Part shown: in pieces, positions 9,099 to 10,795 of the stretch
Position numbering within the stretch: the stretch's first letter is position 1
Layout: each line of letters opens with the position of its first letter
Source of the DNA: Streptomonospora alba
GTDB lineage: Bacteria; Actinomycetota; Actinomycetes; Streptosporangiales; Streptosporangiaceae
Length of the DNA stretch: 64,000 bases
Reading direction: 5' to 3'
NCBI RefSeq assembly: GCF_000826685.1
Contig: NZ_JROO01000031.1
Location: 1-64,000, forward strand
Position numbers and translations under genes: made by a program
The notes under the pieces: model-generated
What the model was told of the DNA's origin: nothing
What the model saw: the letters and a program-made list of their open reading frames with translations, nothing else
Database searches by the model: none

Positions 9099-10478
9099 AT
9101 GACCGAAGGCAGGAACTACCGCCTGGTGCACGGCGGCGGTGACGAGGACCAGATCCCGCACGTACTCGTCGTCGGCGGCGGGTACCTGGGGATGTACACC
9201 GCGAAGCGGCTGGAGAAGCAGCTGGGGCCGGGCGAAGCCCGCATCACCATCGTCGACCCCAACTCCTACATGACCTACCAGCCGTTCCTCCCGGAGATCG
9301 CGGCGGGCAGCATCTCCCCGCGCCACGTCGTCGTTCCGCTGCGCGACGTCTTCGACCGGGTGCGCGTGCTCACCGGGCGCGTCATCCACGTGGACCACGC
9401 CAACCGCTCGGTCGACTTCGAGCCCGTGGTCGGCGAACCGCGCAGGATCGCCTACGACCACATCGTGATGGCCGCAGGCGCCGTCTCCCGCACGCTGCCC
9501 ATCCCCGGGCTGGCCGAGTGGGGGATCGGCATCAAGACGGTCGAGGAGGCCGTTTACCTGCGCAACCACGTGCTGGACCAGCTGAACATCGCCGACTCCA
9601 CCGACGATCCCGAGATCCGGCGCAAGGCGCTCAACTTCGTCTTCGTCGGCGGCGGCTTCGCCGGTGCCGAGGCGATCGCCGAGCTGGAGGACCTGGCCCG
9701 CGACGCCACGCGCATCTACTCCTCCATCGACGTCGACGACCTGAACTTCTACCTGGTCGAGGCCGCCGACAAGATCCTGCCCGAGGTGGGCCCCGACGTC
9801 GGTGAGAGGACGCTGAACCAGCTGAAGCGGCGCGGGATCGACGTGCGGCTGTCCACCTTCCTGGAGTCGGCCGTCGACCAGCGGATCAAGCTCAGCGACG
9901 GCGCCGAGTTCGACGCGGGAACCCTGGTGTGGACCGCAGGCGTCAAGCCCAGCCCCGTCGTGCAGGCGGGGGACCTGCCGCTGGGGCCCAAGGGCCACAT
10001 CGACACCAGCGAGTACCTCACCGTCAACGGTGTGGAGAACGCCTTCGCCGGCGGCGACAACGCCCAGGTGCCCGACGGCAAGGGCGGCTTCTACCCGCCC
10101 AACGCCCAGAACGCGGTGCGCCAGGCCCCGGTGCTGGCCGACAACGTCATCGCCGCGCTGCGCGGCCGGGAGATGACCCCCTACGTGCACGGCAACCTGG
10201 GCGCCGTGGCCGGACTCGGCCTGCACAAGGGCGCCGCCCAGCTGTTCGGCAGGATCAAGCTGACCGGCAGGCTCGCCTGGTACGCCCACCGCGCCTACCA
10301 CCTCTACGCGGTGCCGACCTTCAACCGGAAGGCGCGCGTCCTGGCCGACTGGATCGTCGGCTTCATCCTGCGGCGCGACTACGCCGCGCTGCCGGAGATG
10401 CAGGAGCCGCGCCAGGCCTTCGAGGAGGCGGCCAAGCCCCAGGTGGAGAACGGGCAGCTGCTGCGCCGCGTCAGCTGA
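9099..10478 (+). CDS. ndh: Type II NADH:quinone dehydrogenase (NDH-2)
   Basis: 459-aa single-subunit FAD enzyme that oxidises NADH and reduces menaquinone at the membrane without pumping protons. It has two Rossmann motifs: HVLVVGGGYLGMYTAKRLEK for FAD near the N-terminus and NFVFVGGGFAGAEAIAELE for NADH in the middle. The FAD-contacting AFAGGDNAQVPD segment and the NAQNAVRQAPVLADN quinone-site helix follow. The C-terminal part is amphipathic with Arg/Tyr clusters, fitting monotopic membrane attachment. ATG 9099 is preferred; SD-like AGGGGCGGA lies upstream. Two Rex-like boxes suggest repression at low NADH/NAD+ and induction when NADH accumulates. Confidence 0.94.
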   Translation: MTEGRNYRLVHGGGDEDQIPHVLVVGGGYLGMYTAKRLEKQLGPGEARITIVDPNSYMTYQPFLPEIAAGSISPRHVVVPLRDVFDRVRVLTGRVIHVDHANRSVDFEPVVGEPRRIAYDHIVMAAGAVSRTLPIPGLAEWGIGIKTVEEAVYLRNHVLDQLNIADSTDDPEIRRKALNFVFVGGGFAGAEAIAELEDLARDATRIYSSIDVDDLNFYLVEAADKILPEVGPDVGERTLNQLKRRGIDVRLSTFLESAVDQRIKLSDGAEFDAGTLVWTAGVKPSPVVQAGDLPLGPKGHIDTSEYLTVNGVENAFAGGDNAQVPDGKGGFYPPNAQNAVRQAPVLADNVIAALRGREMTPYVHGNLGAVAGLGLHKGAAQLFGRIKLTGRLAWYAHRAYHLYAVPTFNRKARVLADWIVGFILRRDYAALPEMQEPRQAFEEAAKPQVENGQLLRRVS

Positions 10479-10700: not shown

Positions 10701-10706
10701 TATGAT
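10701..10706 (+). promoter_or_regulatory. tRNA promoter -10 element
   Basis: TATGAT lies exactly 7 nt upstream of the first base of the tRNA, so transcription could begin at or very near the mature 5' end. No good -35 hexamer is visible. Confidence 0.6.
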
Positions 10707-10712
10707 GGTGCC

Positions 10713-10786
10713 GCCCTCGTAGCCCAATGGTAGAGGCAGGCCCCCTAAAAGGGTCACAAGTGTCGGTTCGAGTCCGACCGGGGGTA
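10713..10786 (+). tRNA. Class I tRNA with UAA anticodon (tRNA-Leu(UAA)-like, identity uncertain)
   Basis: A full cloverleaf folds in 74 nt: acceptor 10713-10719/10779-10785 (with G1.U72 and U5.G68), D stem GCC/GGC with GG in the loop, anticodon stem GGCCC/GGGTC, 6-nt variable region (10756-10761), T stem GTCGG/CCGAC around TTCGAGT, discriminator A followed by CC but not CCA. The 7-nt anticodon loop is CCTAAAA, so bases 34-36 are UAA, but position 33 is C, not the near-universal U. True tRNA-Leu(UAA), such as Streptomyces BldA, is class II with a long variable arm; this one is not. It may be a specialised or decaying tRNA. Confidence 0.75.
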
Positions 10787-10795
10787 CCGCTTCGT

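Follow-up and report, generated by a model that had tools for sequence, protein, structure and literature searches.

The stretch of DNA analysed here, called the window, is 64,000 nucleotides long and holds one tRNA gene, which ARAGORN read at 10713-10788 as a tRNA-Leu with anticodon taa (Table 1). The Rfam tRNA model RF00005 matched 10713-10786 over its full length with 46.5 bits (E 7e-9), the cut-off used being 29 bits, and the minimum-energy fold was a complete cloverleaf. Folding energy was unremarkable (z -0.86; 37 of 200 shuffled sequences folded equally well or better). The acceptor stem, GCCCUCG/CGGGGGU, has seven pairs including G1.U72 and U5.G68, the D stem has three, and the T arm is standard. 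The anticodon loop reads C32 C33 U34 A35 A36 A37 A38. In the gene, A73 is followed by CC and then by G, so that the CCA end is incompletely encoded. A preliminary description, made from the letters of the window, had reported a cloverleaf combining UAA with a short variable region, C33 and G1.U72, and ARAGORN, Rfam and the sequence bore out all of these. The molecule therefore has the anticodon of a leucine tRNA but neither the long variable arm (at least 10 nt) of a textbook class II tRNA-Leu, its own variable region being 6 nt, nor the U33 of an ordinary elongator tRNA.

Table 1. Features at the tRNA locus, in coordinates of the window.
Feature	Position	Strand	Basis
FAD/NAD-dependent oxidoreductase, NADH-dehydrogenase-like (our label), upstream neighbour	9099..10478	+	ORF
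TATGAT, -10-like box, putative promoter, ending 6 nt before G1	10701..10706	+	sequence, conservation
tRNA-Leu(UAA), class I, G1 to A73	10713..10786	+	ARAGORN (extends to 10788 with CC), Rfam, fold, covariation
D arm GCCCAATGGTAGAGGC: three pairs, mismatch, AA, GG-N-A; class II tRNA-Leu D-arm frame	10722..10737	+	sequence, D-arm table
Anticodon arm GGCCC-CCUAAAA-GGGUC	10739..10755	+	sequence, covariation at 5/5 stem pairs (22 chosen sequences)
C33 replacing U33	10745..10745	+	sequence
Anticodon UAA	10746..10748	+	sequence, ARAGORN
Variable region ACAAGU, 6 nt, last base U48	10756..10761	+	sequence

The preliminary description had also seen a perfect -10 box at the exact distance from the gene, and had taken the gene to be transcribed. 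The distance was right, but TATGAT matches TATAAT at only five of six positions. As to transcription, a promoter scan found no -10/-35 pair upstream of the tRNA; it is nevertheless made likelier by the presence of TATGAT at the identical distance in 59 of 149 loci with a class I UAA tRNA (some genomes are counted twice in this set, which holds 106 distinct sequences over the first 72 bases). Counted over distinct pairs of gene and upstream sequence, TATGAT stood at six bases in 48 of 133 and a looser TA...T box in another 31, and 47 of the 85 distinct pairs with U33 lacked even a loose box at that place. No -10-like box was found at six bases from any of the other 54 tRNAs of the genome from which the window comes (hereafter the source genome). 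The box is a putative promoter element, and what speaks for it is its conservation. If it is a promoter, transcripts would start at or near G1, with almost no 5' leader.

The oxidoreductase reading frame, which was matched by 13 NCBIfam models, none above its own cut-off, is separated from the tRNA by 234 bp. Among the matches listed, 61 of 119 loci had a homologue upstream in the same orientation, at a median distance of 238 bp; of the remaining loci, 34 had less than 2.5 kb of upstream sequence and 24 had no oxidoreductase homologue. Judged by gene order, the place of the tRNA is an orthologous one, marked by this shared neighbour.

The source genome assembly (5.91 Mb, 110 contigs, 97.5% complete) contains 56 tRNA matches above the Rfam cut-off, 55 of which are read by ARAGORN. 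A class II tRNA-Leu(UAA), for which the preliminary description had proposed a search, was not found among these 56 matches, nor was any other second UAA tRNA. Because the assembly is 97.5% complete and in 110 contigs, the absence of another UAA tRNA is likely, not certain. The window tRNA is thus very probably the UUA-reading tRNA-Leu of this genome, the counterpart of Streptomyces bldA. Three leucine isoacceptors of the source genome, UAA, UAG and CAA, are class I (76 nt by ARAGORN, with variable regions of 6, 5 and 5 nt), and two, GAG and CAG, are class II (86 nt, with variable regions of 16 and 15 nt). As UAG and CAA also have the short shape, it is not confined to the window gene. Both of these carry U33, and C33 occurs only in the UAA member. 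The non-ribosomal or specialised tRNA suggested in the preliminary description finds little room here, given that this is the sole UAA tRNA found and that two more leucine isoacceptors are class I. The match for which ARAGORN made no call, L078, and a second sequence, L080 (near C2:217589-217658 and C57:24134-24205), are tRNA-Val(GAC)-like pieces with altered 5' halves and intact anticodon and T arms. They are possibly attachment-site copies of integrated elements.

A similar set was found in Pseudonocardia dioxanivorans CB1190, all 46 tRNA matches of which were read: leucine CAA, UAA and UAG belong to class I and GAG and CAG to class II, and the class I members have a D arm nearly identical to that of the window tRNA. 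In Nocardiopsis eucommiae (14 stretches read, covering 15 of 60 matches), the short form is that of UAA and UAG, whereas CAA, CAG and GAG are class II. A DNA search with the window tRNA matched 41 of 60 genomes, the source genome included. The gene was found in all five other members of the genus searched, at 98.7-100% identity, and in 33 of 37 genomes of the family, the source genome again counted. For the four family members left without a match (G021, G034, G007 and G019), further searching yielded a UAG tRNA in G034 and no convincing UAA tRNA in G007 and G019, which are 92% and 91% complete; G021 is considered below. In G038, which belongs to another family, a UAA tRNA is present at a contig end. 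Two odd copies were encountered along the way. One genome has, besides the full gene, a partial class I UAA tRNA (G018:C132:4340-4379; query bases 37-76, 88%), which could be an attachment-site remnant or the 3' half of another tRNA. In Pseudonocardia endophytica, a second UAA tRNA-like sequence with an altered 5' half (L125) accompanies a normal class I gene.

The class I form is widespread in the phylum. A pattern scan of contigs, in which position 33 was allowed as C or U only, gave at least 119 stretches, all from Actinomycetota by their record titles; among the matches listed were Nocardiopsis, Thermobifida fusca, Streptosporangium, Nonomuraea, Actinomadura, Pseudonocardia, Saccharothrix, Blastococcus, Geodermatophilus, Jiangella and an Acidimicrobiia MAG. 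In a set of 394 Actinomycetes genomes that includes the source genome, the class I UAA pattern was present in 182 and the class II pattern in 61. Only four genomes, all of family f27, matched both, and their class II matches were rejected as false, ARAGORN finding no tRNA there. Neither pattern was matched in 155 of the 394, so the patterns miss some forms. At the places fetched, ARAGORN read a tRNA-Leu(taa) in all 30 cases of class I (74-78 nt) and in 17 of 21 of class II (82-89 nt); it confirmed six of seven further class I places. The seventh, L333, matches the class I pattern without an ARAGORN call, and its genome (G091) has a second match.

Within the set of 394, the window's family (41 genomes) matched the class I pattern throughout and the class II pattern nowhere; in family f20, which we take to be Streptomyces-like from its bldA-type tRNA, all 39 matched class II and none class I. 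A locus from a record titled Streptomyces sp. NP160 (L207) has a class I UAA tRNA, whereas the sampled Streptomyces-like family has class II only; the record may be misnamed. Among 246 genomes sampled across the phylum, the class I pattern was found in 31, of which 11 belong to class Actinomycetes, 17 to f60 and f89, and three look weak. Families f60 and f89 lie outside class Actinomycetes, and the figure of 17 out of their 29 genomes is one of pattern matches alone. Across the 149 class I UAA loci, the variable region is 5 nt long in 100 and 6 nt in 49.

How could a leucine tRNA do without its long arm? In E. coli, according to a review of tRNA identity, the determinants for LeuRS are A73, the A15-U48 pair, G18G19, A20a and contacts between D and T loops, and the long variable arm is not among them (PMC9976931). 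The window tRNA carries A73, A15-U48, G18G19 and A20a. In the 149 loci, A73, A15-U48 and GG-N-A were each present in 147, and TTC.A in all. Moreover, the window-type D arm, GCCCAA.GGCAGAGGC, is framed like that of class II, GCGGAA.GGCAGACGC. In both, three pairs are followed by a mismatch and AA, and after G18G19 there is one base more than in ordinary class I tRNAs such as those for Lys and Asn. This class II-like frame leads us to favour descent from a class II leucine tRNA that lost its arm, rather than convergence. We also asked whether class I tRNA-Leu goes together with an additional or special LeuRS, and dropped the idea for want of any simple correlation across relatives. In the source genome a single LeuRS gene exceeds the family cut-off, four relatives (G007, G016, G036 and G037) have two LeuRS-like genes of different form, and a shorter and a long form of LeuRS both co-occur with the class I UAA tRNA (for example in G000 and G040).

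Position 33 divides the class I UAA tRNAs, C33 being present in 56 and U33 in 93 of the 149 loci (30 and 76, respectively, of the 106 distinct sequences). Named holders of C33 are Nocardiopsis, Allonocardiopsis, Thermobifida (T. fusca at locus L223), 10 of 14 Actinomadura, Actinoallomurus, Trebonia and related MAGs; Actinomadura madurae, pelletieri, macrotermitis and nitritigenes carry U33. The preliminary description had proposed to compare orthologues for conservation of C33. It had also held that orthologues with ordinary U33 and a clear canonical isotype would speak against the odd readings of this tRNA, and the 93 U33 loci, with UAA and leucine identity bases, are such orthologues. G1.U72 occurs in 25 of the 56 C33 loci, against 4 of the 93 with U33, and is lineage-typical.

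The codon to be read, UUA, is very rare. In the source genome, five TTA were counted in 43,014 core codons (264 kb sampled), four of them in one doubtful open reading frame. Counts were two in 72,542 sampled codons for G021 (400-kb sample) and three in 34,802 for G010, and only one of eight Fisher comparisons of TTA frequency gave p below 0.05 (0.024, uncorrected). The two TTA codons of G021 lie one in a C-terminal tail and one in a doubtful open reading frame. This genome, of the same family, is 8.3 Mb in 30 contigs and 100% complete, and no UAA tRNA was found in it, either among its 54 tRNA matches, all read by ARAGORN, or with a second DNA query; its leucine tRNAs are CAA, UAG, CAG and GAG. 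A UUA reader is therefore apparently dispensable there, and can be lost. We considered whether TTA is depleted in G021 beyond its base composition, but about one TTA is expected when TTG is scaled by CTA/CTG, so that there is no sign of such depletion.

The meaning of UUA was examined in the coding sequences of the window and the 119 loci, by aligning TTA codons having at least five homologues; the counts that follow hold among the matches listed. In this small test the majority residue was Leu in 10 of 17 columns, Thr in four, Phe in one and Val in one, and one was mixed. Counted by residue (n=488), Thr (39.8%) and Leu (39.5%) were level, because a single site in an ndh-like gene (L147, L177, L182 and L228, from four related genomes), which accounts for the four Thr columns, weighs heavily. 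In genomes with C33, Leu was the majority in five of six TTA columns, and two of the six lay in well conserved stretches, where Leu was found in 51 of 55 (L129) and 8 of 8 (L151) homologues. For comparison, columns of TTG, read by the CAA isoacceptor, had Leu at 216 of 288 positions.

We consider it highly probable that the window gene encodes a working tRNA-Leu(UAA) which reads the rare codon UUA and corresponds to bldA, in a class I form common in Actinomycetota. The tRNA itself is real and is conserved, and it is probably expressed. Going by its sequence, it should decode as bldA does, though it is not a textbook class II tRNA. We infer the following scheme. The gene would have a promoter to itself, transcripts would begin at G1 or close by, and a nucleotidyltransferase would complete the CCA. 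LeuRS would read A73 and the core formed by D and T loops instead of a long arm; since the enzyme would ignore the arm, an armed ancestor could have lost it without losing leucine identity. The mature tRNA would then be charged with leucine and read UUA. In tRNAs generally, C33 weakens the turn of the anticodon loop. The change from U33 to C33 in the lineage of the source genome would probably have weakened UUA reading, which may be tolerated because UUA is almost unused.

A variant of this scheme, and in fact a special case of it, gives weak reading a purpose. C33, perhaps together with a separate promoter, would keep UUA decoding low or dependent on growth phase, and so throttle a few genes. 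C33 is indeed fixed in 56 of the 149 loci, in molecules whose stems are compensated, UUA is very rare in the source genome, and Streptomyces employs the codon in this way (PMC4255298). The same review, however, mentions that the developmental role of bldA may be limited to Streptomycineae, and that outside this group TTA is sometimes found within conserved growth genes; besides, no gene under UUA control was found here, and rarity of UUA at 71-73% GC can be explained without selection. We therefore regard a throttling function as rather unlikely.

That the tRNA works outside the ribosome, for instance as an amino-acid donor for an enzyme making peptides or lipids, appears very improbable. C33 is unusual in elongators and G1.U72 uncommon, which would fit such a role. 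But G18G19 and TTC.A, on which folding of the core depends, are retained, U33 orthologues exist, this is the sole tRNA found in the source genome that is capable of reading UUA, and no tRNA-dependent enzyme was present among the four neighbouring genes searched.

A decaying gene, also proposed in the preliminary description, could be suspected from C33, G1.U72 and U5.G68, and from an Rfam score below that of nearly all other tRNAs of the source genome. The stems of relatives indicate otherwise. We aligned 22 class I UAA tRNAs chosen by hand for diversity (11 with C33 and 11 with U33; one poorly aligned Lentzea row was retained). In this set, 98.6% of pair cells were standard, so that the stem decay between relatives expected of a pseudogene was not seen among these chosen sequences; 14 of 20 pairs had changes on both sides, and none of 500 shuffles of the set reached either value. 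Given such compensated variation, C33 has the look of a trait that is being maintained rather than of decay. Together with the near-identity of the gene throughout the genus, the conserved upstream box and the lack of any replacement UAA tRNA found in the source genome, this leaves decay scarcely credible. Least plausible of all is a loop shifted by one base, giving U33 and an anticodon AAA that reads Phe UUU: some C33 loci, L045, L048 and L113 among them, are indeed called tRNA-Phe(aaa) by ARAGORN, but the shift would keep only two of five stem pairs in the window, the unshifted anticodon stem has double changes at all five pairs of the 22-sequence set, and the source genome already has a normal tRNA-Phe(GAA).

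Under the preferred reading, that of a working class I tRNA-Leu(UAA), two things are surprising: how widely the class I form is spread through the phylum, and the fixation of C33. A phylum with up to three of five leucine isoacceptors in class I would amount to a natural experiment in the requirements of LeuRS, and such tRNAs would mislead pipelines that assume a long arm or U33. Class II bldA of Streptomyces can be set against the class I UAA tRNAs found elsewhere, and C33 against U33 where the genes occupy one orthologous place; these comparisons open the tuning of UUA decoding to direct tests. One may go further and propose that much of the phylum rebuilt some of its leucine tRNAs in armless form, which would break the class II rule for bacterial leucine tRNAs, and that in one branch C33 later became fixed as a brake on UUA reading, the codon becoming slow or nearly unassigned and its reader being lost in at least one relative, G021. 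As a whole we find this unlikely.

The class II rule is current in the literature. A tRNA-seq pipeline counts Ser, Leu and Tyr as the bacterial type II tRNAs (PMC6297222), and the identity review describes the long variable arm as shared by cytosolic tRNAs-Leu (PMC9976931). No paper was found in the open literature that presents class I tRNA-Leu as characteristic of Actinomycetota, most subscription journals lying outside the scope of the search; in what was searched, bacterial class I tRNA-Leu is mentioned only in passing. A review of actinobacterial development covers bldA and the rare UUA codon, and its pertinent passages leave aside which class the UAA tRNA belongs to in other genera (PMC4255298). 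Short-looped leucine tRNAs can nevertheless be traced in mycobacteria. One report describes a tRNA cluster with a UAG tRNA-Leu having a short variable loop (PMC6582537), and another gives long loops for Leu-2, -3 and -5 of M. tuberculosis (PMC11541572), from which we infer that the remaining leucine tRNAs of that species are short-looped. The passages concerned make no claim of a general trait and discuss neither UAA nor C33.

Compared with other tRNAs of unusual shape, the window tRNA differs from the allo-tRNAs, a few 9/3 forms of which have leucine anticodons (PMC7609411). These are likewise unusually shaped bacterial tRNAs, but have 8/4 or 9/3 acceptor and T stems, whereas those of the window tRNA are an ordinary 7/5. 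With the class I UAG and CAA tRNA-Leu of its own lineage it shares the type of D arm and A73; their variable regions, of 5 nt, also end in U48, but they carry U33. With Streptomyces bldA it has in common the UAA anticodon, the codon UUA, A73 and the D-arm frame, and also that only one type of UAA tRNA was seen in each genome, the four false overlaps aside. The bldA-like genes, however, belong to class II, ARAGORN giving 84-86 nt at L232, L327 and L328 (which we take to be bldA from their sequence and the family pattern), and the window gene is class I, with its 6-nt variable region, C33 and G1.U72.
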